Origin: a virus
DNA: 27,905 nucleotides
Virus record (IMG/VR): IMGVR_UViG_3300047551_000906
Span: 1 to 27,905 of that record
Reading direction: 5' to 3' (one strand)
Below, in pieces: positions 1-23,062 of this stretch (position 1 is the first letter of the stretch; each line of letters begins with the position of its first letter). Made by a program: the position numbers and the translations under genes. The notes below the pieces were generated by a model. That model did no database searches. It saw only the letters and a program-made list of their open reading frames with translations, and had not been told where the DNA came from.

Positions 1-605
1 ACTATGGTTAATTTCTCTCCTGATTTATTTTGACGAAGAAAAATTCCAGTCACAGTTGCATATTGACCACGAACTGGCTGTCTCTCTCCATAAACATTAA
101 AATATCTAAAGATAACAGTCTCCAACCCAAACAGGCTAGAATACATTTTACAAAGAGATTCTCCTGATACTTTGGTAGCAGAATACGGATTTAAACAATC
201 AACAGGCATCGTTTCAACCATAGGTGGATCATTTTTTAAACCATATGCAGAAGAAGTAGAGGAATACAATACTCGTTTTACTCCAGCCTCTCTTGAGCAT
301 TGCAAAACTATTCCTGTTCCCAAAATATTTGATCTCAATGCTTTGATTGGGTCTTCTATGCACTGAGGTATTCTAGATTCTGCTGCCATATGAAACACAC
401 AATCAACTCCTTGATAAAGATGACGAGTGTGTTCATAAGAAGTAATGTCAGCAACAACATTATATGATTTGGGATTCCAATAAAATTTCTCATTTGATGT
501 GGCTGATTCGTTGTCTATAACCACAACAGAATGACCATCGCTAATTAGTCGGTCTACAAGATTAGATCCTATGAACCCCGCTCCACCTGTTACTATTGCT
601 TTCAT
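1..605 (-). CDS. NAD-dependent sugar epimerase/dehydratase, extended SDR family (3' end cut by window edge)
   Basis: I translated this from the ATG at 605-603; the frame stays open to base 1, so about 201 N-terminal residues are visible of the roughly 310 usual for the family. It opens with a Rossmann signature (VTGGAGFIGSN) at residues 5-15, continues with an acidic residue at the end of beta-2 (VVVIDN), and has the SDR catalytic pattern STSSAYG followed by YSATK. Family members interconvert or dehydrate nucleotide-activated sugars (for example UDP-glucose 4-epimerase or dTDP-glucose 4,6-dehydratase); the substrate cannot be told from this part. It is the most downstream gene seen in the island and starts 3 bases after the stop of the FkbM-type methyltransferase gene, so it is probably co-transcribed. 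It may feed an activated sugar to the glycosyltransferases encoded upstream. Confidence 0.88.
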   Translation of the reverse strand, partial: MKAIVTGGAGFIGSNLVDRLISDGHSVVVIDNESATSNEKFYWNPKSYNVVADITSYEHTRHLYQGVDCVFHMAAESRIPQCIEDPIKALRSNILGTGIVLQCSREAGVKRVLYSSTSSAYGLKNDPPMVETMPVDCLNPYSATKVSGESLCKMYSSLFGLETVIFRYFNVYGERQPVRGQYATVTGIFLRQNKSGEKLTI

Positions 606-608
606 ATT

Positions 609-1253
609 TCACCTTGCATATATCATTCCCCATCTCTTTTTTCTTTCGGGAACAATGTCACATTTTTTAAAAACATTATCCCATTCATCATATTCTAGAT
701 TTGGATTATATTCCATTATTTTTTCTCCAGATCCTTCCCAATGACTATCAGAAGCAAAACGAGTATATCCCAAGTCCTTCAACAATTTAACACAATAGAT
801 CGTATCATCAAAAAACTCTTCACACCACTCAAACAAAATAGTTTCGCTTTTTTTACTCATCCCACGGATAGCAAATAATTCTGCTCCTTCTATATCCAAT
901 TTAATGATATCTGGATTTCCGTATCGCCTAACCAAAGTGTCAATAGTATATGATTTAACCTTTATCTCTCGTTTAGTGTTATTGAAAAAATATTGATGTC
1001 GTATAGCATCAATCCATTTTGGGTTGATAGAATTTATTCCTGGATTTGAATCGCACAAGTACATAGACATTTCGTCAGAATCCACATCGGATACAACTCC
1101 CGCAATAAATTCTACATTAGAAATTGGATTTTGACGAAACAACATCTCGTACATAGGATGACCTTCAACCCCAACAACTTTTGAGTTTGGGTAAATAGAC
1201 AATACTTCTTTTGTAAAATTTCCGTGATTAAAGCCAATATCAAAAATCAACAT
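609..1253 (-). CDS. FkbM-family SAM-dependent methyltransferase
   Basis: The 214-residue protein begins with a glycine-containing SAM-binding strand (FDIGFNHGNFT), followed by an acidic strand end (VVGVEGHP), and carries the FkbM hallmark in its second half: YTIDTLV, then PDIIKLDIEGAE near residues 140-160. FkbM proteins usually O-methylate sugars or natural products and are common in polysaccharide clusters. An AAGGAG sits about ten bases before the ATG, supporting this start. It lies between the sugar kinase and sugar epimerase genes, so methylation of an island-made glycan is the natural inference. The target hydroxyl and sugar are not predictable. The base composition is clearly AT-rich compared with the replication genes. 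Confidence 0.85.
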   Translation of the reverse strand: MLIFDIGFNHGNFTKEVLSIYPNSKVVGVEGHPMYEMLFRQNPISNVEFIAGVVSDVDSDEMSMYLCDSNPGINSINPKWIDAIRHQYFFNNTKREIKVKSYTIDTLVRRYGNPDIIKLDIEGAELFAIRGMSKKSETILFEWCEEFFDDTIYCVKLLKDLGYTRFASDSHWEGSGEKIMEYNPNLEYDEWDNVFKKCDIVPERKKRWGMIYAR

Positions 1254-1267
1254 AGTACATTTACTCC

Positions 1268-1993
1268 TTATATTGTGGTTACGCCACGGTGCTTAACCAC
1301 TTCTGATGCACACAAGTTTGCAAATTGTATTGACTCTGTTATGATCTCTGTCTGAAAATATTTTATCACAAGTGCTGCCATGAAACTATCACCAGCACCA
1401 GAGGTATCTTTTACATCAACGGTGTTTACAGGATACTGTCTTCCTTGAAACAAACAACCATTACCACCAACAGTATGTATGATCTTGCTGTTTAAAAGTT
1501 CACTGATGTGTGGTTTTGAGTTTTTATATTCGTAGTCATTTATCTTGATGTATTTGGCGTGATTAGCCCAACTACCAAGTACCTTTTTTGTATCCAAAAA
1601 AACATTAGGATGAATCTTGCAGATGTGTTCTATATCACTCTCTGTTAAGAATCCTTTATTGTAATCAGATATGACTATTAGTTTATAATCAAAATCAATA
1701 TTCTTGATGTCTACTCGGTCTATATCACTTTCATTATCAACCCGAACAAACATATGGTTGGTATTTTCGTGAACATATCTGGTCTTGGTTATGCTTTGCC
1801 AATTTGAATTTGTAAAAATATCGCAATCCATATAGGACTGTATATTTCTTTGTACATTCTTTGCCATGCCCACATTCTCTACCTGATTGACCACTTTTAA
1901 TATGGGAACAGGAAAATCTGGTGCTAGCCTAGTAGAATCACAATAGACAAATACATCTCTGCAACTTTCGCCAATAATCAAAATGTCTTTCAT
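1268..1993 (-). CDS. PfkB-family sugar kinase, HldE (RfaE) kinase-domain-like
   Basis: The 241-residue protein is a short ribokinase/PfkB-fold kinase. Near the N terminus, RLAPDFPVPILKV (22-34) resembles the substrate loop of HldE heptose-7-phosphate kinases (RISPEAPVPVVKV), followed by a degenerate glycine-rich segment VGMAKNVQRNI. The C-terminal half has the PfkB signature DTSGAGDSF (196-204) with the presumed catalytic Asp202. HldE kinase domains are usually about 310-320 residues, so this is a reduced version; no cytidylyltransferase domain is present. AAAGAG precedes the ATG. It ends about 15 bases before the FkbM gene and starts 11 bases after the E1 beta stop. Phosphorylating a heptose or other sugar for activation is the inferred role; the exact substrate is uncertain. 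Confidence 0.8.
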   Translation of the reverse strand: MKDILIIGESCRDVFVYCDSTRLAPDFPVPILKVVNQVENVGMAKNVQRNIQSYMDCDIFTNSNWQSITKTRYVHENTNHMFVRVDNESDIDRVDIKNIDFDYKLIVISDYNKGFLTESDIEHICKIHPNVFLDTKKVLGSWANHAKYIKINDYEYKNSKPHISELLNSKIIHTVGGNGCLFQGRQYPVNTVDVKDTSGAGDSFMAALVIKYFQTEIITESIQFANLCASEVVKHRGVTTI

Positions 1994-2003
1994 TTTAACT
2001 CTT

Positions 2004-3047
2004 TCAGGTAGTCACGGTAATCTTTGGTGCAAAATGTAGATCATCAAAAGACAAAACCTCTTCGTGTCTGTCCATATTAAACATTTCCAAAACCTTGTTT
2101 ATCACATCAACTTTGGTGGGATAGAAAATTTCAGTTAGAGAGGTAGAGGTTGGGCAAGGAACATTAGGTGTGCTTAGTTGTTGTGGTGCTTGTGATAGGC
2201 ATCTAAAACAGTTAACACAAACCTTTGAAACTATTTCTCCACCAATATTAAACGCAGCGTTTGTTGTATCCAAACACAGTAGTTTACCTGTCTTGCCTAT
2301 AGAGTTGTAAACGGTGTCGTAATCTATTGGATTGATAGAAACCAAATCTATAACCTCAACACTTATTCCTCTATCCATCAAAATCTTGGAAGCCCTAATA
2401 GCATCAACCACACCGTCTCCGTAGGTGACAAGAGTGATATCTTTTCCTTCCACCACAATTCTAGCCTTATCCAAAGGGGTTTCATAGTATTCTTCTGATA
2501 CCTCTTCTTTTAGACTATACAGCCACCTCGGCTCCAAATAAACAACAGGATTGTTGTCAGCAACAGCAGCATTCAATAATCCCTTTGCTGTTTTTGGAGT
2601 AGATGGTATCACCACTTTTAGACCCGAAACATTACCAAATAAAGAATATAGTGCTTGGGTGTGTTGTGGGCCATTTCCCCATTGGCGACCAACTGCAAGT
2701 CTAAAAACGATTGGAACGCTATTACCACCACCAAACATGTAGTTCCACTTTGCTGCTTGTGTAACAATTTGATCTATTGCAAATATTCCAAATTCAACTC
2801 TTGCATGATGAATAATCGGTCGAAGACCAGTTATGGCAGAACCAACTCCAACTCCAGTGTTGCAAAATTCTGAAACAGGAGTATCAAACACTCTGTTTGG
2901 ATACTGTTCTTTTAGAGTTCCCATAGTCCCGTCTGCACCATTCTTGTATGATACACCAAGACCCATGACAACCACTCTAGGATCTCTAGCAAGAGACTGT
3001 TCTGTTGCTTCTCGTATTGCTTCGGTGAAAGATAGTAGTTTAGTCAT
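2004..3047 (-). CDS. Thiamine-diphosphate-dependent 2-oxoacid dehydrogenase E1 beta-like subunit
   Basis: The open frame extends further upstream, but the ATG at 3047-3045 gives the canonical E1 beta start (MTKLLSFTEAI); the 20 extra residues come from overlap with the E1 alpha gene. The resulting 347-residue protein shows DTPVSE with the ThDP-activating Glu60, the glycine-rich AITGLRPI segment, QHTQAL with conserved His129, GLKVVIPSTP and DNNPVVYLEP, then a transketolase C-terminal domain (VTYGDGVVDA, VEVIDLVSINPID). Oddities are four C-terminal cysteines (277, 280, 283, 298) and a tail of about 20 residues beyond the usual end. It overlaps the E1 alpha gene by 8 bases and should form an alpha2beta2 enzyme with it. 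No E2 or E3 gene is visible, so a role in acyl or ketol transfer to a sugar is plausible but inferred. Confidence 0.9.
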   Translation of the reverse strand: MTKLLSFTEAIREATEQSLARDPRVVVMGLGVSYKNGADGTMGTLKEQYPNRVFDTPVSEFCNTGVGVGSAITGLRPIIHHARVEFGIFAIDQIVTQAAKWNYMFGGGNSVPIVFRLAVGRQWGNGPQHTQALYSLFGNVSGLKVVIPSTPKTAKGLLNAAVADNNPVVYLEPRWLYSLKEEVSEEYYETPLDKARIVVEGKDITLVTYGDGVVDAIRASKILMDRGISVEVIDLVSINPIDYDTVYNSIGKTGKLLCLDTTNAAFNIGGEIVSKVCVNCFRCLSQAPQQLSTPNVPCPTSTSLTEIFYPTKVDVINKVLEMFNMDRHEEVLSFDDLHFAPKITVTT

Positions 3048-4002
3048 GGTAAACATCCTTGTACAAGTCTTCGTGAGGGGGATAGGGAGAAGATACACCA
3101 AAATCAATAGCAGATTTTACACTTACATTTATTTCATTTTCTACAGACTCAATCTCTATTTCGGAGTATTCCTTGAGAAGTTCTGTTCTCAAATTTTTAA
3201 CAGAATCGTGTTTCTGTCTGTCTTCTATCTTGTCTATTTCACGATAACCAATTTTATCATCGCATATAGGAGCACTATGTGCCATGTGTCTAAATGTGAT
3301 ACATTCCAACACAGCGGGTTGCTTGTTTGTCTTGATGTTCTCTATTGCAGTCTTTGCTTTATTGTAAACATCAAAGAAATCGTTTCCATCAGCCTTATAA
3401 TACTTTGCACCAAACCCATCAACGATCTTTTCAAGATTGTGTGATTCGCTTCTTCTATCTTTTAGTTTGCTCATAACAGAATAAAGATTGTTTTCAACAA
3501 CCAAAAGTAGTGGCAACTTGAATAGAGATGCAAAATTTATAGTTTCGTAAACAACTCCCTCTTCAGAAGCACCATCTCCGAAGAAAGCCACAGTAATGTT
3601 TTCTGAATTGTTTAGTTTTTGCGTAAGTGCCGATCCTGCTGATATTGGAGCAACACTTCCAAGAATTGGTGTCGAACCAACAAAGTTTACAGATCGGTCA
3701 ATCATGTGCATAGAACCACCTTTACCACGGCAGCAGCCTGTTACTTTGCCTAGAAGTTCGGCTACCATTCTATTTGGATCTCCACCCTTTGCCAAATAGT
3801 GTCCATGCGAACGATGATTGCCAAACGCATTGTCTTCGTGATTTAGATTTTCACATACACCAACGGCTACTGCTTCTTGACCGATATAGAAGTGGACAAA
3901 ACTCATAATCTTGTTTTCAAAATAATGTTTCACAAGATCCTCTTCGATTCTACGAATCAGAAACATTTTCTTATACGCTTCCAACATTTTTTGCTTGTTC
4001 AT
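3040..4002 (-). CDS. Thiamine-diphosphate-dependent 2-oxoacid dehydrogenase E1 alpha-like subunit
   Basis: The 320-residue protein resembles pyruvate/acetoin dehydrogenase E1 alpha. It has FYIGQEAVAVGV (38-49), NHRSHGHYLAKGG (62-74), CCRGKGGSMHM (90-100) and the ThDP/Mg motif beginning GDGASEEGVVYE (142-153) and closing with ENN (170-172). The histidine-containing loop FRHMAHSAP (237-245) is followed by DDKIGYR, as in the family's active-site loop. Known relatives decarboxylate a 2-oxoacid and pass the acyl group to lipoyl-E2, or form acyloins when no E2 is present. Here it is translationally coupled to E1 beta and begins 4 bases after the zinc dehydrogenase stop, inside a sugar cluster. A carboligase-type function in making a modified sugar is my inference. 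The fold and cofactor assignment is firm, the substrate is not. Confidence 0.91.
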   Translation of the reverse strand: MNKQKMLEAYKKMFLIRRIEEDLVKHYFENKIMSFVHFYIGQEAVAVGVCENLNHEDNAFGNHRSHGHYLAKGGDPNRMVAELLGKVTGCCRGKGGSMHMIDRSVNFVGSTPILGSVAPISAGSALTQKLNNSENITVAFFGDGASEEGVVYETINFASLFKLPLLLVVENNLYSVMSKLKDRRSESHNLEKIVDGFGAKYYKADGNDFFDVYNKAKTAIENIKTNKQPAVLECITFRHMAHSAPICDDKIGYREIDKIEDRQKHDSVKNLRTELLKEYSEIEIESVENEINVSVKSAIDFGVSSPYPPHEDLYKDVYHD

Positions 4003-4006
4003 ATGA

Positions 4007-5035
4007 TTATCCGTTCAAATGATTCATTCTGACCATGATTCTTCCAGCAATACCCGAACGCAAAGTTTCAACAGCAGTATTTATCTCATCCAAAGAGAAC
4101 TCATGTGTGATTATATCATCTATGTTCAACATTCCTGCTTTGTGTAGTTTAACATATCTTGCGATATCTTCGTTGGGAGAAGTCTTGCCACCCTGTGTTG
4201 CCTTTATAATTTTTCCATTACCACCAAACAAAGAGTTTGCATTCGGAATATTCATAATTTGCCCTGGCTTTGGCTGACCAACCAAAACATATCTTCCTTT
4301 ATCTGAAAGATATGGAATAGTTGAACTGATAGCATCAGTATTTCCAGTAGTGTCAACAATCACATCAATTTTTGTTGATAGTTCTGTTTGAATATTCTTT
4401 ATGTTTATGAAATTTGATGCTCCTATTTTCATAATCATTTCTCTTTTTTCTTCGCTGACATCAACTCCGATTATTGGATAGGCACTAGCCATTTTAGCAC
4501 CTTGAATTAAATTCAGTCCAACGCCGCCACAACCAACAATCATAATACTCTCGCCAAATTTCAAATCAATTTCATTGTTGATTGTCCCCAAAGCAGTAGT
4601 CAATCCGCATCCAAGAAGAGCACAAAGCCTGTCATCTGTATCAACAGGAACAGCAGTAAGGCGATTTTCTGACACTATAGAGTACTCGCTGATAGTAGTA
4701 ACCTTTCCACTCGATATTGTTTTGCCATCAAGAATATAATTTGGAAAAGCAGATTCAATTCCTGCACCAACTCTCCAGTGCATGACAACTTTATCTCCTA
4801 CTTTCACTCTAGTCACTCCTTCTCCAACAGCCTGAACTGTACCACACCCTTCGTGTCCTAGCAAGTGCGGAAGAAATTTTTCATTACCTTTTAGCCCAGC
4901 GATTTCTTGTAGTTGTGCACCACACAAACCACTGATAGAAATCTTGACCAACACTTGCCCCACCTTTAGCGGTGTCAGTTCTACTTCTCTGATTGCCACG
5001 GGAGAATTTATACGCTCAAGTACTGCTGCTCTCAT
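4007..5035 (-). CDS. Zinc-dependent alcohol dehydrogenase (MDR superfamily)
   Basis: The 342-residue protein has the medium-chain dehydrogenase layout. The catalytic zinc ligands are Cys38 (SGLCGAQ), His61-Glu62 (LLGHEGCG) and Cys143 (LLGCGLTTALG), followed by the NAD(P)-binding motif VGCGGVGLN (167-175) and an acidic residue in IIGVDVSEEKR. The four-cysteine structural-zinc lobe expected around residues 85-110 is missing; that stretch (MHWRVGAGIESAFPN) has no cysteine. It resembles class III-type alcohol dehydrogenases without the second zinc. Its start overlaps the upstream gene's stop as ATGA, and its stop is 4 bases before E1 alpha, so all three should be translated together. Oxidation or reduction of a sugar or of the carbonyl product of the E1 pair is inferred. 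Confidence 0.9.
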   Translation of the reverse strand: MRAAVLERINSPVAIREVELTPLKVGQVLVKISISGLCGAQLQEIAGLKGNEKFLPHLLGHEGCGTVQAVGEGVTRVKVGDKVVMHWRVGAGIESAFPNYILDGKTISSGKVTTISEYSIVSENRLTAVPVDTDDRLCALLGCGLTTALGTINNEIDLKFGESIMIVGCGGVGLNLIQGAKMASAYPIIGVDVSEEKREMIMKIGASNFINIKNIQTELSTKIDVIVDTTGNTDAISSTIPYLSDKGRYVLVGQPKPGQIMNIPNANSLFGGNGKIIKATQGGKTSPNEDIARYVKLHKAGMLNIDDIITHEFSLDEINTAVETLRSGIAGRIMVRMNHLNG

Positions 5036-5724
5036 ATTAAAATTTCCTTTGGATATTTGTAAGAACCAAACAAGTCAACCACATCATAACCAATTAACGG
5101 TCTTGCATAACGATGAATATAAAATTCTGAATTGAGTATCATCATATCCACCATGAACGCAAAACAACTTTCAATACAATGAACCGACTGTGCCTTTTCT
5201 ATCAGCAAAGAATAATCAAAAATACTTTTGGTTAAACCATCTTTCGGTCTAATCACTCTCGTGCCTTTGGGCAATCTCTGCTCGTTTATCGCAAATCTAG
5301 AATCATCGTGTACAAAAATATAAGGTTCATTTATATTATAAGTATTGTATAGTTCTTGTTCTCTATGAGAGTCTCGCTTATAGTAAAAAGAAGTCCACTT
5401 TTTTTCAAATGGTATTCTATGTTGCAGATAAAAGTTTCTTTCAAAACTTATGCTCTTGTCTTCCCAAGAAAAACCAATCAAAAATAATTGGTCAGAAGAT
5501 AGATTATTGTTGATAAAGTTTATAGCACCGGCATCGTCACATTCTATGAAATTAAGATTCTTTAAATCTTTATACATCTGCGAAACAGAAACCGCATTAT
5601 GCGGCTTAACAAACATATAATAATTTTGTGCCGGGTTAATTATATTACGAACAAGACCATTGCATATCAAATGATCTCCAAGACCCATGTGTTGATATAT
5701 GAATTTAGAATTCCAAATGTTCAT
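5032..5724 (-). CDS. Putative GT-B glycosyltransferase, family 9/heptosyltransferase-like
   Basis: The 230-residue protein starts with a strand leading to MGLGDHLICNGLVRNI (13-28), which looks like the GLGDxL nucleotide-sugar transferase start of heptosyltransferase-type (GT9) enzymes. Later segments YIFVHDDSRFA and SLLIEKAQSVHCIESCFAFMVDM resemble the second half of such enzymes, where the donor-binding region and a conserved Ser/Glu near the C terminus lie. It is shorter than typical GT9 enzymes (about 320-350 residues), so it may be a reduced version. It has ATGA overlaps at both ends. The composition is among the most AT-rich in the window. The pairing with an HldE-like kinase suggests a heptose theme. 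Family assignment is by pattern only; a hypothetical polysaccharide protein is the alternative. Confidence 0.5.
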   Translation of the reverse strand: MNIWNSKFIYQHMGLGDHLICNGLVRNIINPAQNYYMFVKPHNAVSVSQMYKDLKNLNFIECDDAGAINFINNNLSSDQLFLIGFSWEDKSISFERNFYLQHRIPFEKKWTSFYYKRDSHREQELYNTYNINEPYIFVHDDSRFAINEQRLPKGTRVIRPKDGLTKSIFDYSLLIEKAQSVHCIESCFAFMVDMMILNSEFYIHRYARPLIGYDVVDLFGSYKYPKEILI

Positions 5725-6431
5725 CTAGGATCTCGGGTGTGAACAATAAATTGGTGTTCCTCTTTGTTTTCTCCGTGCTGAACTCCCCATTGCGTTGGAT
5801 CAGGTAGTATAGTGATATCGTGCTTCTTTGTCAATAGGCTCCATATGGATTGATCGTGCCTATGACCTTTGAAATTTGGTTCTTCCCAACCGTCTTTGTT
5901 TGGTGTATCTGTAACAAAGTGCGGATTAGTTGCTATTTCCAAATACTCTGATACTATTCTTTTTGCATCATCTGTCCCACGAAAACACATAAAACTAGCC
6001 ATCCTCTGTGGAGTATCAGAATATTTTGCATCTGTCATGTCCATATACTTCAACAAGTCTCTCTTGGTGTATTCTTTTTCTATATGACTACCAGCCAACT
6101 TAAATGCTATGATACCACGAGGATCAGATTTCACAGCATCAAATATGGGTTCCATCCTTCTGATAAAAATAGAACCAGAGTCAGCATAAAAAAGAATATC
6201 TGTTTCTGATAGGGTATTCAAAGTTCTCTTGATGAAGTACGGCTTCCACAACCAGTATCCAGCACCACGCTTTTGTGATAGGATATCCGAATGAACAATA
6301 CTAAAATAGGATTCAATGTCTGCTGCTCCCATCTGATAAACAACATTGAATCCTGCGGCTAGACCACTTTGGCTGTTCTTGAATTGGGATTCCAAGAACT
6401 TGCCATTTGCATAGTTTAAAAGAACTCTCAT
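5721..6431 (-). CDS. Putative glycosyltransferase (GT-A-like) of surface-glycan type
   Basis: The 236-residue protein carries GAGYWLWKPYFIKRTL (56-71), then DILFYADSGSIFI with an acidic DxG metal-site-like motif, a central KLAGSHIEKEYTKRDLL, and GHRHDQSIWSLL toward the C terminus. This pattern is seen in small, poorly named glycosyltransferases from capsule and O-antigen clusters, where D-x-G/D coordinates the nucleotide-sugar metal. No signal peptide or membrane segment is visible, so it should act in the cytoplasm. It overlaps both neighbours by 4 bases (ATGA), placing it in the same translational chain. Donor and acceptor are unknown. Confidence 0.6.
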   Translation of the reverse strand: MRVLLNYANGKFLESQFKNSQSGLAAGFNVVYQMGAADIESYFSIVHSDILSQKRGAGYWLWKPYFIKRTLNTLSETDILFYADSGSIFIRRMEPIFDAVKSDPRGIIAFKLAGSHIEKEYTKRDLLKYMDMTDAKYSDTPQRMASFMCFRGTDDAKRIVSEYLEIATNPHFVTDTPNKDGWEEPNFKGHRHDQSIWSLLTKKHDITILPDPTQWGVQHGENKEEHQFIVHTRDPR

Positions 6432-7060
6432 TGTTGTGATTGAGGAACCAAAGACTCGGTTGTTTTTGAATTATAGATGTACATGTGCATTGGTTCAGGA
6501 ATGTGGTACTCGGTCTGAACCTTTGGATACAGCCTCATAAGCCAATCAATGTCTTCTGTAGACTGTCCGTTAGCACCGTACATGGGACGGAACTCTTCGC
6601 TCTGTGCAATTTCACGCCGCCACAAACACATATGGTACGGAGGACGCTTGATGTCTCCAAGCAATCCCTCTTCGTTTCTCCACAACTGTCCATGAGGATT
6701 GCCAATTCCAAAAGACACATTCATTGGCTCTCCGTCAAGAGAGCAGAATTGGTCGAATGAGATGCAATCAACTGTTGGATTTTCTGTGGCAGCAGTCAGC
6801 AGAGCATCAACATAGTTGTTTGCTATGCCGTCATCATCGTCCATGAAACACACGAACTGCCCACGAGCAGCCTGCAACAGCACATTACGCTTCTCTGAAA
6901 TGCTTTGGGATTTGTTATCTGTCAGGACTAGAATCTCTACAGATCGACAGTTGCCCAACTGCCCTTCCAACTTTTTCATCAGGGCAGTAACAGACTCGGT
7001 TCGTGATGGAATAGACAGTATCAAAATACTAATTAAGATTTCATTTGACGGTACTGGCAT
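6428..7060 (-). CDS. Family 2 glycosyltransferase (GT-A)
   Basis: The 210-residue protein has the layout of a short GT2 enzyme: an N-terminal strand (ISILILSIPSRTESV, 10-24), EKRNVLLQAARGQFVCFMD leading to a run of four aspartates at 74-77 (the metal/nucleotide-sugar DxD), and an acceptor-side TEDIDWLMRLYP containing the ED motif typical of the catalytic base region. There is no membrane segment, so it is a soluble transferase. The GTs of this family transfer a sugar from UDP-, GDP- or dTDP-sugar with inversion. It overlaps the next gene by ATGA and starts one base after its upstream neighbour's stop codon. Composition is less AT-rich than genes 1-6.4 kb, hinting at a different origin within the island. 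Confidence 0.82.
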   Translation of the reverse strand: MPVPSNEILISILILSIPSRTESVTALMKKLEGQLGNCRSVEILVLTDNKSQSISEKRNVLLQAARGQFVCFMDDDDGIANNYVDALLTAATENPTVDCISFDQFCSLDGEPMNVSFGIGNPHGQLWRNEEGLLGDIKRPPYHMCLWRREIAQSEEFRPMYGANGQSTEDIDWLMRLYPKVQTEYHIPEPMHMYIYNSKTTESLVPQSQQ

Positions 7061-7061
7061 A

Positions 7062-7706
7062 TTATTCTCCTATTTTTTCCACTTGGTACACCCAACACCC
7101 TTCACCAAAACCATCATCATATGATGAAAATCCAACACCATATTGGTCTTCGTATTTTCCTTCGCCTACTCCTATTGTGTCGTGAACTGCTCTACGAACA
7201 TCAGAACACCATCCGTAATCGTGACCAGCCAAAACTCCAAGATTCTTTAGTTTTGGCAACCACGCTTTAATGTCGGCAACAACTGAATCATAACGGTGAT
7301 CGGCATCAATGAAAACAAAATCAAGAGAACCGTCTTCGTATAAATTTGCTGCTTTGACAGAATCTTCTCTTACTGGAGTAATCACATGAGAAACTGGTTT
7401 TATATTGCTTAAAAACTTCTCGTATAGATTTCCATTCTTAACATAGGTGTCATTTTGGTGTCCGTCTTCTGTGACACTCCCCATCCAAGTATCAACACAA
7501 TCAAATTTTATTTTCTTTCCAGAATTGTGTATTTCTACTGCCATGTAAGCAGACGATCTTCCTTTCCAAGAACCAACCTCTACAAAATGACAATCATCAG
7601 AAAAAAGTTTAACTATTTCAGAATATAGTCTAGGAAAAGTAAAATACCCTTCTTCAAAACAAGAGTCTGTCCAGTAGTGATCTATTTTAGGCTGTTGTTG
7701 CTGCAC
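7062..7706 (-). CDS. Class I SAM-dependent methyltransferase (Methyltransf_24-like)
   Basis: The 214-residue protein has a SAM-binding motif FVEVGSWKGRSSAYMA (41-56), an acidic motif II region (FDCVDTW), and SLDFVFIDADHRYDSVVADI (near 128-147) followed by GVLAGHDYG, matching the class I methyltransferases linked to glycan and cephalosporin-hydroxylase-like clusters. The start is a GTG at 7706-7704 inside the end of the upstream gene, supported by GGAGG nine bases before it; the nearby ATG belongs to the upstream frame. The overlap is 20 bases. It likely methylates a sugar or a small acceptor made by the island. The target is unknown. Confidence 0.8.
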   Translation of the reverse strand: MQQQQPKIDHYWTDSCFEEGYFTFPRLYSEIVKLFSDDCHFVEVGSWKGRSSAYMAVEIHNSGKKIKFDCVDTWMGSVTEDGHQNDTYVKNGNLYEKFLSNIKPVSHVITPVREDSVKAANLYEDGSLDFVFIDADHRYDSVVADIKAWLPKLKNLGVLAGHDYGWCSDVRRAVHDTIGVGEGKYEDQYGVGFSSYDDGFGEGCWVYQVEKIGE

Positions 7707-8394
7707 CGAACATTACCTCCATATCAAAGTTCTTGGCTTTACGAGCCTCAAAGGTCTTACTGTCCACATCGTACATGTCCTTGTTTTCATTACGAGCATG
7801 GAGAGTGTCAAACGGCTCGTTTGTCCACTCGTGACGAATAATGCAGAAAGGAGCGATTGCCAACTTGCCTAGACGGTGGCACACTTCTGTCTGCTCGTTA
7901 TCGCAATACAGAGACTTGTATTCAGGGTTGTAGATATAGCCAAACTGCTTGTATAGAGGGAATCCCATGACAGTCAGAGTCATAAGCATGTCTTCTTTAG
8001 GACGCAGACCGTCCCAAAACTTGATTGCCCCACTGAAATCAGGAAAGGCTTGCTCAAAACATTGAAAAATTATTTCATCGTAACCCATCTGCTGCGGATT
8101 CATGTCGTCTGAAGCAAGCAGTAGCACATCACCGTCTTCGCCTTCCATGTCTGCGTTACAGGCTTCAATCTTACTCTTGGAGTTGCCGTAGCAGTACTTG
8201 ATGTCGGCATTACGCTTGCGAGTCTCAAACCACTCTCGCATAGCGTCGTTGTTCATGGTGGCATCGTCTGCGTCCATGCTGACAACAAAACGAACATCAT
8301 GTCGTCCACTCAAGAAAGTGAGATAGCGGGTAAAGACCGTCTTGAACTTGTCAGGGCGATTACGGGTTGGAAACTTTATCACGAGTCTGCTCAT
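7687..8394 (-). CDS. Putative GT-A fold glycosyltransferase-like protein
   Basis: The 235-residue protein has an N-terminal GT-A-like start (LVIKFPTRNRPDKF, 4-17), then SMDADDATMNND (39-50) and VLLLASDDMNPQQMGYDEII with two aspartates at 96-97 that look like a DxD-type metal site. C-terminal residues IAPFCIIRHEW give a further possible catalytic Asp/Glu-His region. Such proteins transfer sugars or are sugar-nucleotide binding relatives. An AAGGAG lies eight bases before the ATG. It is the first gene of the island after regA (16-base gap), and its GC content is closer to the phage core than to the AT-rich left part. No promoter is evident, so it is likely read through from the regA transcript. 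Confidence 0.6.
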   Translation of the reverse strand: MSRLVIKFPTRNRPDKFKTVFTRYLTFLSGRHDVRFVVSMDADDATMNNDAMREWFETRKRNADIKYCYGNSKSKIEACNADMEGEDGDVLLLASDDMNPQQMGYDEIIFQCFEQAFPDFSGAIKFWDGLRPKEDMLMTLTVMGFPLYKQFGYIYNPEYKSLYCDNEQTEVCHRLGKLAIAPFCIIRHEWTNEPFDTLHARNENKDMYDVDSKTFEARKAKNFDMEVMFGAATTA

Positions 8395-14763: not shown

Positions 14764-15821
14764 TGCTGTTTAGTGTTTTCCAGTGCTTGGGTTTCAGCGT
14801 ACAGTTCACGCAGCAGGGTCTTTAGCCGTGACGAGTCCACATTCTGTAGCCCGTCAATCTCACGATTTATAATCGTAATGGTGTCCTCTGTCAAGTCCAC
14901 ATTTTCTTCGGCTACGGTTTCAGGAGCCAAGTCTTCAATCACCGTGACTGTCTGTGGTTGGTGTGCGTAGAGGGAGTCCACAAATTTCTCAAACAGATAC
15001 GGCTTGGTCTTGGTTTCCACCACAACCCGCACAAACTTGCCCTTGACCCGTGCTTCTTCTACTTGGATTGGTGTGGCTGGATCAGCGTCTTTGTCGTTGT
15101 AGCGGAGTTGGGTAAAGATGGTGTACGGATTGGGAACAAACTCCAAGTCGCCTGTATCGGTATCCAGTACATGGAACCCCTTCTTGTCACCGTAATCGTT
15201 CATGGTGATCTGATACGGGCAACCCAAGTAGTGCACATTGTCTCGGCTGTGGCGGCAATGGAAGTGTCCTGTATACACCGCAGAGTACCGCTTGAACAGG
15301 TCAGCGTTCATGCCGCCGTCAAACGGTGTGTTCTTCAGCACATTGAATCCGTGAAGTTCAAGGTGTCCACACAAGATATCTGTGGGTGCGGTGCGAATAA
15401 AATCAAGACACTCTGCTTCGTTTTCTTTGTTAATCCAAGGCACTAAAGCAAGTGGTCGCCCGTCAAATTCTTGAATTGTGGGCTTCTCGTGAATCACAAA
15501 CTTGTCCGAAAACAGTTCACGAAGCGAATTCACATTACTCGTATTCTTGTAGAAGATGTCGTGGTTGCCAAGAATAACATGGAACTCTGCACCTGTCCGT
15601 TCCAATCGCTTCACAAACCCTTCACGCACCGCATTCAAGGTGGAGAAGTTCACAAACTTTCGGCGGTCTAAAAAATCACCCAAGTGGAGGATATGTGACG
15701 GCTGATGGGTTTCCACCCACGGGAAAAACACGCGGTCAAAGAACCGCATGAAATACTCCATGAATATCGGAGAATCGTTTCGTGCCCCAAAATGGGTATC
15801 AGTAATGATGGGGAGTTTCAC
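14760..15821 (-). CDS. 47: Recombination endonuclease subunit gp47 (Mre11/SbcD-like)
   Basis: The 353-residue protein (T4: 339) carries the calcineurin-like phosphoesterase motifs in order: Asp8-x-His10 (ITDTHFG), LHLGDFLDRR with Asp49, LGNHD (85-88), CGHLELHG with His153, and TGHFHCR with His186 and His188. These hold the two metals of Mre11-type nucleases. The start is a GTG at 15821-15819 overlapping the gene 55 stop as GTGA. The partner gp46 follows directly with an ATGA overlap. The C-terminal part (after about 270) is charged and probably contacts gp46. Confidence 0.96.
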   Translation of the reverse strand: MKLPIITDTHFGARNDSPIFMEYFMRFFDRVFFPWVETHQPSHILHLGDFLDRRKFVNFSTLNAVREGFVKRLERTGAEFHVILGNHDIFYKNTSNVNSLRELFSDKFVIHEKPTIQEFDGRPLALVPWINKENEAECLDFIRTAPTDILCGHLELHGFNVLKNTPFDGGMNADLFKRYSAVYTGHFHCRHSRDNVHYLGCPYQITMNDYGDKKGFHVLDTDTGDLEFVPNPYTIFTQLRYNDKDADPATPIQVEEARVKGKFVRVVVETKTKPYLFEKFVDSLYAHQPQTVTVIEDLAPETVAEENVDLTEDTITIINREIDGLQNVDSSRLKTLLRELYAETQALENTKQQ

Positions 15822-20403: not shown

Positions 20404-21864
20404 TTACGATGCAACGCCGTGTAGGTTGTCTACGCGGAAGATGCGGTAGTAACGGTTGCTGCGGGTCGCTAGACGACCACCACCAGCAACACTACCTTCA
20501 GCGAAGGGGTTCGCAACCATGCCGTAGCGGGTCTTGAACGCAATCTTGGGCTGGAAGGTAGAAGTGTCAACGGCTCGCATCATCTGTAGCGGAACATACG
20601 GGCAGTAGAATACGCCTGCATCGTATGGGCTGGTTCCCTTGTAACCAACCATTACAAAGTTAGCACTTGCAGAGGTGCTATCAATGTAGGGGTCAATATA
20701 AACCTTGACCTTACCGTTGAGTGTGCCAGCAAAAGTATTGCCAGTATCATCAACATCAAGGCTGACATTTAGTGCAGGGCTGATGTTGAGGAATCCACCC
20801 ATTGCGAGAGCAGAAGCAACATCTGCCGAGCAGATGATGAAGTTGCCCTTGCCACGACGGGTATCCTTGGCGATCTGGTTGCACTCACGCTCAATCTGGA
20901 ACATGAGTCCACGGAACTTCTCAGCACTCCAACGACCGTCAGAGTCCTGAACAAGATCGTAGACACCACCAACGGTGGTAGAACCAGCAGAAGTTAGACC
21001 GCCAACTACAGTGTTGTAGTACAGGTCGCTTTGCTGTGCTCCGAGACGAGCGGTACGATATAGAGTGCGAACTACTTCTCGGTTGATTTCAGCAAGAATT
21101 TCAGTGCTGAGAATGTTGGCGAGTTCGGTTTCGGCATCAAGACCGTGAACTGCCTTGAGGTCTTGAGCGAGTTCAACGCTGTAGGATGCAGCAAGAGCAC
21201 GAGTGTTAGCCTGTACAGCCACACGCTCAATGCTGAAGCCCATTTCTTGCGGAGTAACACCTTCGCCAACACTGGTGCTCATACCAATACCTTGAGTCAA
21301 ACCAACATTAGAAGTTGCTCCACCAAGTGCTGGAAGACCCAAGAATGGATCAACAAATCCATAGGTTCCGCCTAGAGCACCAGTTAAACCCTTACCAATA
21401 GCACCACCAGTGTGACCGCTGAATGAAGAAGTAGCAGTACCACCTGCGAATGCAGAATCAGCCTCATTGAAGAAGGCTTCTGCACCGTGTACGCCTGCGG
21501 CTTCTCCCTGATTACGGTACTTGCTACGCATTGCGAAGATTAGACCGGTTGGAGCAGACATGGCTTGAACGCCGCAGATGTCGTATGCCATTAGGTTTGG
21601 CATGGCACGACGAACGAGTTGGATCAGGATGGGGTCGTAACCCTTGATGTTGCCTTCGTTACCAACTACGGGCGACATACCGTTACCAACATTGTTGCCG
21701 TTTTCTGCGAGCATTTGCTGACGGACTGCCTTCTCCTGATTCTCTAGGAGGGTAGCAGTTACCGCACGACGGTGCGGATCAGCGATTGGGGCCATATCGG
21801 CGTGATCTAGAACGGGCTTCCACTTGCGGAGAGCCTGTTCAGTTAGCATCTTGTTCTCTTCCAT
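20404..21864 (-). CDS. 23: Major capsid protein gp23
   Basis: The 486-residue protein (T4: 521) is a clear gp23: LRKWKPVL near the start, ENQEKAVRQQM, then VRRAMPNLMAYDICGVQAMSAPTG-type core sequence (residues about 80-105), IERVAVQANTRALAASYSVELAQDLKAVHG (split, mid-protein), and a C-terminal FKTRYGMVANPF. It forms the hexamers of the prohead. Likely protease cleavage after LAE at residue 54 (gp21 cuts after short hydrophobic-x-Glu motifs) would remove the propeptide. AAAGGAG sits just before the ATG. A weak hairpin precedes and a strong terminator follows, so its transcript may be mainly monocistronic. Glycine/alanine-rich loops at about 130-180 are long relative to T4. Confidence 0.98.
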   Translation of the reverse strand: MEENKMLTEQALRKWKPVLDHADMAPIADPHRRAVTATLLENQEKAVRQQMLAENGNNVGNGMSPVVGNEGNIKGYDPILIQLVRRAMPNLMAYDICGVQAMSAPTGLIFAMRSKYRNQGEAAGVHGAEAFFNEADSAFAGGTATSSFSGHTGGAIGKGLTGALGGTYGFVDPFLGLPALGGATSNVGLTQGIGMSTSVGEGVTPQEMGFSIERVAVQANTRALAASYSVELAQDLKAVHGLDAETELANILSTEILAEINREVVRTLYRTARLGAQQSDLYYNTVVGGLTSAGSTTVGGVYDLVQDSDGRWSAEKFRGLMFQIERECNQIAKDTRRGKGNFIICSADVASALAMGGFLNISPALNVSLDVDDTGNTFAGTLNGKVKVYIDPYIDSTSASANFVMVGYKGTSPYDAGVFYCPYVPLQMMRAVDTSTFQPKIAFKTRYGMVANPFAEGSVAGGGRLATRSNRYYRIFRVDNLHGVAS

Positions 21865-21883
21865 TGTAGTGACTCCTTTGTTT

Positions 21884-21905
21884 GAAAACAGTCTGGATTA
21901 GACTG
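21884..21905 (-). terminator. Weak hairpin with short U-tract between genes 22 and 23
   Basis: On the minus strand CAGTCT-GGATT loop complement-AGACTG forms a perfect 6-bp stem (21905-21889) followed by TTTTC (21888-21884), in the 64-base gap before gene 23. It could be a partial terminator or an mRNA-processing/stability site that raises gene 23 expression relative to gene 22. Confidence 0.45.
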
Positions 21906-21928
21906 GAATGTGTTAAGAAAAAAGTAAA

Positions 21929-23062
21929 TTAGTCCTGTTTCTTGCTCATGGACTTGAGGTACGCCTCCATGAGCGGAGAAGCCTCGGAACCTTCCTCGTA
22001 GGACTCTTCAAGAGACTCCTCTTCGGTAGCGGTTTCGGTTACGGTTCCGATCTTCTCAATGTTCTCGCGGAGAACAGAGAGTTTTTCGGCAAACTGCTCT
22101 ACCGAATCAAACTCCACGCTCTCAGCGAGTTCACGGAGTTTCTGGGTTTCGGTGTCGGTTAGTCCTTCAGCCATTTCGCGGAACAGGAGTTCGCAACGGA
22201 GTTGTTCGCACTCTTCGTTGATCTCCATGTTCTTGGAAACCTGCTCGTCTAGTTCGCTCTTTAGGCTTTCAAAATCCTCAACGGTGGACTCAAACAGATC
22301 AAGTTTCTCTTCGGGGATTTCAATGTAGGACTCGGCAAACACGCTGCGGAGTTTCTCAATGAATCCCTCGGTGATCTCGGTGCGAAGACCGTTGGCTACA
22401 GCGAGACGATTCTCCTGCATCCACTCTTCCACCACATAGTTGAGATACTCATCAATACGCTCAACCATCTCTTCGGTAACTGCAAGGGTGTGCTCTTCTA
22501 GGAGAGTCTCGTACTTGCCCTGTAGTTCTTCTTCGATCTGGCTGGTGCGAGCAGCGAGTTGAGCCTCAAACAAGGTTGCAGCCTCGTTCATAAACTCTTC
22601 GCTGAGTTCCTTGCCAGCGAACAAGGTTTCGATGCTCTCCTTCATAGAGGGCTTCTCAATCTTGGCACTGGCTGCGCTTGGCTTGGGCTTGATTGTTCCC
22701 ATGTTCTTGCCAGAGTTGGCGTTGTGGGGTTCAGCAATCTTCTGACCCTTCTTGTTGGCATCATGGGCAATCTTGGTGTCAGAGTAGTCAGAAGCGGCTT
22801 CCTTCATGGACTTCTTGGAGGGCTTTTCTTCCTCCTCTTCCTCTTCTTCGTCCTCGTCTTCCTCGGACTCTTCCTCTTCTTCCTCTTCCTTGGCTTCTTC
22901 TAGTTCGCCGTCGAACTCCTCTTCCACGATTTCCTCCTCAACAACCTCTTCCTCGCCTTCGGGGGCATCGGTGGGTTCATCGGTAGGATCGGTGTTTTCT
23001 GCGAGGAAGCCTTCCCCTAGAATTACCTTCTTGATTACATCTTCGATCTTTTCGTTAGCCAT
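21929..23062 (-). CDS. 22: Prohead scaffold (core) protein gp22
   Basis: The 377-residue protein lies between protease 21 and capsid 23, as the main scaffold does in T4 (269 residues). It has an extremely acidic N-terminal part (Glu/Asp-rich 36-80 with an EEEEEE-type run) followed by a lysine/serine linker with KPSKKSMKE and KPSMKES, and a long helical coiled-coil-type body (about 140-340) typical of assembly scaffolds. In T4 most of it is cleaved away by gp21 after assembly. The additional acidic region makes it longer than T4. AAAGGAGA precedes the ATG. Identification rests on position, size and composition together with the helical body. Confidence 0.9.
   Translation of the reverse strand: MANEKIEDVIKKVILGEGFLAENTDPTDEPTDAPEGEEEVVEEEIVEEEFDGELEEAKEEEEEEESEEDEDEEEEEEEEKPSKKSMKEAASDYSDTKIAHDANKKGQKIAEPHNANSGKNMGTIKPKPSAASAKIEKPSMKESIETLFAGKELSEEFMNEAATLFEAQLAARTSQIEEELQGKYETLLEEHTLAVTEEMVERIDEYLNYVVEEWMQENRLAVANGLRTEITEGFIEKLRSVFAESYIEIPEEKLDLFESTVEDFESLKSELDEQVSKNMEINEECEQLRCELLFREMAEGLTDTETQKLRELAESVEFDSVEQFAEKLSVLRENIEKIGTVTETATEEESLEESYEEGSEASPLMEAYLKSMSKKQD

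Follow-up and report, generated by a model that had tools for sequence, protein, structure and literature searches.

Pairs of E1-type thiamine diphosphate (ThDP) enzymes have been connected with sugar biosynthesis in antibiotic clusters. The Plm8/Plm9 pair is held to attach a pyruvate-derived two-carbon (C2) unit to the deoxysugar of paulomycin (PMC4802897), Plm8/Plm9 and AviB1/AviB2 attach C2 units in the paulomycin and avilamycin sugar clusters, and paulomycin needs a ketoreductase as the next step (PMC4802897, PMC4753412). Known bacteria make ADP-heptose from sedoheptulose 7-phosphate, an intermediate of the pentose-phosphate pathway (PMC10671730). Viral transketolase and pyruvate dehydrogenase (PDH) gene families have been read as central carbon metabolism (Hurwitz et al. 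2013, PMC4053976). Here, we analysed an E1-alpha/E1-beta gene pair lying between a zinc-dependent alcohol dehydrogenase (ADH) gene and an HldE-like kinase gene in the virus record IMGVR_UViG_3300047551_000906, a linear stretch of 27,905 bases with its genes on the minus strand, referred to as a whole as the window. With moderate confidence, we propose that the pair is an E2-independent ThDP carboligase that, together with the ADH, would build a sugar, higher-carbon or branched, that is then activated with a nucleotide. Intact cofactor and catalytic residues, a conserved gene order, the lack of an E2 gene and repeated replacement of the ThDP gene by two other ThDP enzyme types are seen in the sequences, whereas carboligation, step order and sugar product are inferred. 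No description of the module in phages or Patescibacteria, or of a cluster combining HldE, transketolase and ADH, was found in the open-licence literature.

The E1 pair and the absence of E2

The ADH, E1-alpha and E1-beta genes are all real and complete on the minus strand (Table 1). E1-alpha matched E1_dh (6e-65) better than Transketolase_N (9e-4), and E1-beta matched Transket_pyr (1e-23) and Transketolase_C (1e-24). This is the PDH-type E1 domain set, and the pair belongs to the E1 family and is no transketolase. A preliminary description of this DNA had noted that both chains look catalytically intact, and alignments of 15 relatives agreed: GDG-X(26)-NN of E1-alpha is conserved, as are Glu60 and His129 of E1-beta, which correspond to E59-beta and H128-beta of Geobacillus E1 (PMC2663715). 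The motif GR-x-WG precedes the catalytic His in 25/25 E1-beta relatives, is absent from the solved E1-beta chains shown, and may contribute to substrate binding. E1-beta is also ~20 residues longer than the aligned end of PDB E1-beta chains, and this tail, which may bear on the E2-binding surface, carries an SFEEL-like motif conserved in 22/25 and has a predicted local distance difference test (pLDDT) value of ~81. The predicted E1-beta model (pLDDT 83.7; predicted template modelling score, pTM, 0.87) superposed on E1-beta chains of PDH and branched-chain keto acid dehydrogenase, with a template modelling (TM) score of about 0.83-0.87 on the query. The window ADH matched ADH_zinc_N (7e-18) and conserves the catalytic zinc ligands C38/H61/C143; it lacks the structural-zinc cysteines.

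The ATG at 3047 is the conserved E1-beta start, giving an 8-nt overlap with E1-alpha, as in relative L006; the TTG at 3107 that the open reading frame (ORF) caller chose lies too far upstream. A Tyr-to-His change before R-x-HGH in E1-alpha is undiagnostic of the subfamily because AcoA shares it. Single-sequence scans with E1-alpha gave no relatives because their short patterns are unconserved, and alignment-based scans succeeded.

The E2 catalytic domain was searched for as PF00198. None was found in the 27.9-kb window, which by itself is weak evidence because the linear fragment ends inside the cluster. Neither of the complete phages S-SM2 and P-TIM68 has the domain, nor does a 436-kb record (L015/G004) that carries an E1 pair together with T4-type capsid and portal matches. 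The domain was found in 0/20 cluster-bearing Patescibacteria genomes (17 with the E1 pair and 3 with a compact ThDP enzyme), which are metagenome-assembled genomes (MAGs) of unstated completeness. The same search was positive in 10/14 control genomes and in three Prochlorococcus genomes. The sole strong E1_dh match in the 17 E1-pair genomes lay at the cluster, except in G025, which had a second one (134.7 bits); the others were weak. Both window chains scored below the curated PDH E1 equivalog/subfamily cut-offs (alpha, 310.8 < 393.9 bits; beta, 271.4 < 321 bits). Because E2 is absent from the phage records and the 20 Patescibacteria genomes and these scores are below the cut-offs, it is very unlikely that the pair is part of a 2-oxoacid dehydrogenase complex. 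The preliminary description had seen no E2 and had suggested the same; the lack of E2 now extends to records beyond the window.

The pair might still belong to a true 2-oxoacid or acetoin dehydrogenase complex as its E1, borrowing E2/E3 from the host and raising acetyl-CoA during infection, as its clear homology, PDH-like fold, conserved His residues and the HR-x-HGH active-site stretch common to AcoA would allow. However, sugar genes adjoin the pair in the loci mapped, none of the 20 bacterial genomes searched that carry the cluster has an E2, the scores miss the equivalog cut-offs, the beta chain bears its extra tail, and non-E1 enzymes replace the pair in the same slot, so that we consider this highly improbable. 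No host pyruvate or acetoin enzyme came up as a close match: among the matches seen outside the subfamily, the nearest were AcoA, ~41% identical to window E1-alpha, and, in the PDB, PDH-type E1 chains.

Exchange of the ThDP gene among phages and bacteria

Scanning with an ADH alignment returned 80 viral loci, among which S-SM2 recurs and some are near-copies. A ThDP enzyme was encoded within three ORFs after the ADH in 74/76 loci where the ADH was not at an edge, and the kinase came next in most of these. The ThDP enzymes were of three types from different families: compact fused E1-like proteins (61 loci), split transketolases comprising Transketolase_N and a PYR-only chain (7 loci), and E1 pairs (6 loci). 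A scan started from E1-beta gave 14 viral loci, and the ADH adjoined the pair in 12 of the 13 with room for it. One viral E1 pair (L177) stood without an ADH.

The module was also found in bacteria. Patescibacteria, which are ultra-small, carry ADH, E1-alpha and E1-beta in this order, usually followed by HldK, at ~49-64% identity; other Patescibacteria and single-cell genomes of Prochlorococcus have the compact form, and split-transketolase forms are spread across many bacterial phyla. The module is accessory, with a strong E1-beta match in 6/145 genomes sampled from one phylum. The preliminary description had spoken of an unusual viral pathway, but with ~80 viral loci and the bacterial copies the module is not peculiar to this phage.

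Within the module, the ThDP type changed 17 times on the ADH tree (93 rows), where the minimum possible is 2. At the DNA level, L014 (compact) and L015 (E1 pair) were 79% identical up to the ADH stop, and the match resumed in the kinase (72%); L041 (compact) and L051 (transketolase halves) were 78-79% identical on either side of the exchanged gene. That the ThDP gene is replaced and its neighbours are retained suggests that all three enzyme types perform a similar step.

The isolates S-SM2 (SSM2_197-203) and P-TIM68 resemble the window in their order of ADH, ThDP enzyme, HldE-like kinase, epimerase and nucleotidyltransferase. Identity to the S-SM2 genes is 62% for the window ADH and 63% for its kinase; to the P-TIM68 genes it is 57% and 54%. 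The ThDP gene of the two isolates differs from the window pair: it is compact, is ~27% identical to window E1-alpha, and is annotated only as 'transketolase central region'. In S-SM2 it follows the ADH as a fused protein with E1_dh and Transket_pyr and no C-terminal domain, which the P-TIM68 protein lacks as well. When the compact enzyme was submitted to a fold search, its whole chain superposed poorly (TM on the query ~0.65 at most), and the result was not used to assign a function. The 'phosphoheptose isomerase' labels in these two phages belong to short HAD-like proteins, and some of their 'nucleotidyltransferase' labels belong to cupins; both readings were rejected (Table 1).

Candidate reaction and sugar product

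Two-carbon transfer on ThDP is common to E1, compact E1 and transketolase enzymes, which favours an E2-free carboligase. In such a route, E1-alpha and E1-beta would form an alpha2beta2 ThDP enzyme acting as a carboligase without E2/E3. A 2-oxo acid or a ketose would supply a C2 unit, activated on ThDP, which would be joined to a sugar at an aldehyde or ketone carbon, and the adjoining zinc dehydrogenase would oxidise or reduce the donor or the product. The HldE-type kinase, joined in fuller relatives by a phosphatase, an HldE-type nucleotidyltransferase and an HldD-like epimerase, would then lead to a nucleotide-activated sugar, possibly a heptose-like higher-carbon or branched sugar destined for a surface glycan. 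The preliminary description had suggested a carboligase or ketol transferase making a branched or extended sugar. The neighbourhood survey agrees with such a role, since in other loci the slot of the pair is taken by compact E1-like or split transketolase-type enzymes.

Within this proposal, the enzyme could act like a transketolase: it would take a C2 ketol off a ketose phosphate and pass it to an aldose or aldose phosphate, yielding a ketose of 7 or 8 carbons, with the oxidation state set by the ADH ahead of the kinase. Split transketolase-type genes occupy the same slot, the downstream genes are of HldE/HldD type, and sedoheptulose 7-phosphate is the precursor of ADP-heptose in known bacteria (PMC10671730). 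The window pair is nevertheless of the E1 family and no transketolase, and cluster-bearing Patescibacteria have weak E1_dh matches of transketolase-N length elsewhere, so that another transketolase would be superfluous unless it had a specialised role; taken alone, this version is rather unlikely, if a serious candidate. Less likely again is a hydroxyethyl or acetyl transfer from pyruvate onto a nucleoside diphosphate (NDP)-keto-sugar, with the ADH reducing the branch as in paulomycin and yersiniose. The Plm8/Plm9 and AviB1/AviB2 pairs of sugar clusters, with the paulomycin ketoreductase next to act (PMC4802897, PMC4753412), and the GalE/dehydratase-type epimerase in the window speak for it, but the split transketolases of the same slot normally do not use pyruvate, and an HldE-type kinase and nucleotidyltransferase work before nucleotide activation and not on NDP-keto-sugars. 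Because split transketolases fill the slot, we prefer chain extension from ketoses over pyruvate-derived branching; the probabilities of both lie within that of the carboligase proposal.

The adjacency of ThDP enzyme and ADH would also suit a decarboxylase that turns a 2-oxo acid into an aldehyde, which the ADH would reduce to an alcohol to be phosphorylated and nucleotide-linked in the style of cytidine diphosphate (CDP)-alcohols, and the nucleotidyltransferase family does include glycerol-3-phosphate cytidylyltransferase. Since transketolase-type enzymes exchange with the E1 pair and the genes are HldE/HldD-like, not polyol-like, we consider this improbable.

In the fuller relatives L005 and L008, the module also includes an HldE domain-II-like nucleotidyltransferase, a HAD phosphatase of capsule type, a cupin and epimerases, of which one in L005 is HldD-like, and relatives of GmhA and GmhB lie near some bacterial copies of the module. 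Several observations weigh against the proposed carboligase. The E1 pair retains the His residues that PDH uses for lipoyl transfer, and no GmhA was seen in the phage modules. Heptose families were the best matches in the cut-off test of HldE kinase, nucleotidyltransferase and HldD, all below the curated cut-offs (89.7 < 345, 100.5 < 181.5 and 237 < 274.6), which indicates a heptose-like route that differs from the known pathway; the label 'heptose' is used for the module by analogy. Four loci (L174-L176, L178) combine ADH and E1 with a short-chain dehydrogenase and have no HldE-like kinase. Finally, the swaps may instead change the sugar made, as the ADH and kinase could tolerate different products.

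More tentatively than the carboligase itself, we suggest a new nucleotide-sugar pathway common to marine T4-like phages and to Patescibacteria. Its ThDP carboligase and ADH would build a higher-carbon or branched sugar that feeds an HldE/HldD-like route, the ThDP cassette being exchangeable among three types. If this is true, phages both carry and exchange a short pathway to an unusual sugar, in which interchangeable enzymes form the carbon-carbon bond, and the E2-free E1 enzymes are new carboligases. It would correct the 'pyruvate dehydrogenase' and 'transketolase' labels on such phage genes, otherwise read as a takeover of central carbon metabolism, and would imply that Patescibacteria make a sugar whose structure is still to be described. 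With the natural swaps L014/L015 and L041/L051, the shared reaction is open to a direct test.

Cluster layout and comparison with known systems

The window is a fragment of a marine-type, T4-like phage. Its core includes tail sheath, portal, major capsid, UvsW-like helicase, SbcC/SbcD-like and clamp loader genes, and its capsid protein is closest (57%) to those of Synechococcus myoviruses. The zinc dehydrogenase, HldE-like kinase and epimerase that the preliminary description placed beside the pair are all present in the cluster (Table 1). The two conserved cluster genes at 5032-6431 had no match in Pfam, NCBIfam or PHROG, and the window had none in Rfam. The guanine-plus-cytosine (GC) content drops from 46.5% across 7687-27905 to 37.7% across the sugar cluster (1-7060), as a low-GC bacterial contig joined to a phage contig in assembly would produce. 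Such a chimera is extremely improbable: the independent contig L007 repeats the junction, running from clamp-loader/exonuclease genes through glycosyltransferases to ADH and E1-alpha, which argues against it, and the isolates S-SM2 and P-TIM68 carry the module.

Table 1. Features of the window, with cluster genes in transcription order, and relabelled genes of S-SM2/P-TIM68
Feature	Position	Strand	Domain or remark
Phage glycosyltransferase	7687..8394	-	phrog_14945
Methyltransferase	7062..7706	-	Methyltransf_24
Glycosyltransferase, GT2-like	6428..7060	-	
Unknown-family cluster gene c26	5721..6431	-	9 loci
Unknown-family cluster gene c37	5032..5724	-	conserved beside ADH in 7 loci
Zinc-dependent ADH, 342 aa	4007..5035	-	ADH_zinc_N; constant partner gene of the module
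E1-alpha, 320 aa, ThDP/Mg binding chain	3040..4002	-	E1_dh
ThDP-binding motif GDG-X(26)-NN	3487..3579	-	E1-alpha residues 142-172
E1-beta, 347 aa, ThDP enzyme beta chain	2004..3047	-	Transket_pyr + Transketolase_C; ~20-residue C-terminal extension
E1-beta Glu60	2868..2870	-	ThDP-activating glutamate; role from PMC2663715 (E59-beta)
E1-beta GR-x-WG-x4-H129-x-Q	2655..2690	-	catalytic His + subfamily-specific Arg/Trp
Sugar kinase, compact HldE domain-I-like, 241 aa	1268..1993	-	PfkB
FkbM-type methyltransferase	609..1253	-	
NAD-dependent nucleotide-sugar epimerase/dehydratase (GalE/dehydratase-type)	3..605	-	3' part lost at contig end
Mislabelled HAD-like/cupin genes	L002:19968-20279, 21606-21938, 21898-22275; L003:14953-15429, 15429-15767		

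Several further loci were recorded. Distant bacterial clusters (L119-L164, e.g. L127, L134, L145) contain HAD-like, APH-type kinase, split transketolase, methyltransferase and ADH genes, and their fusion order, nucleotidyltransferase then PfkB kinase, is the reverse of HldE. L117 (CAMDBB010000002.1, labelled a Bifidobacterium breve MAG) has a compact module of phage type, with genes 54-82% identical to viral ones, and is probably a mis-binned contig. L004 (CAKLQH020000018.1, 'Acinetobacter phage MD-2021a') contains the acetoin dehydrogenase operon of a bacterium, including lipA, E2 and E3, and looks like host DNA labelled phage; 'Acinetobacter phage' matches at 41% identity were dropped as phage evidence, being bacterial aco operons in phage-labelled records. 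Further phage-database matches (Listeria, Enterococcus, Staphylococcus and gut records) were ~24-37% identical and came from unannotated records.

Compared with the ADP-L-glycero-D-manno-heptose pathway (GmhA, HldE, GmhB, HldD), the fuller relatives share divergent HldE-I, HldE-II, HldD-like and HAD phosphatase genes, whereas the phage modules carry the ThDP enzyme and ADH in place of GmhA. The split-gene transketolase of Carboxydothermus (PDB 6yaj/6yak) represents the type that fills the slot in L050-L054, L059 and L075; it belongs to PF00456, a different family from the window pair, and the phage PYR half lacks a C-terminal domain. Acetoin dehydrogenase E1 acts on a ketol. Unlike window E1-beta, AcoB of the aco operon lacks the GR-x-WG motif and the C-terminal tail, and an aco operon with its E2/E3 and lipoate genes was not present in the mapped module loci. 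Plm8/Plm9 and AviB1/AviB2 resemble the window as E1 alpha/beta pairs in a sugar cluster, their C2 attachment being proposed or genetically supported, and the window likewise has an E1 pair without E2 inside a sugar cluster. They differ in belonging to Streptomyces antibiotics and in branching a deoxysugar at C4 from pyruvate, and the available descriptions mention no HldE-type kinase. E1 pairs that add C2 units to sugars are thus already known from paulomycin and avilamycin, and the phage module is a further variant.

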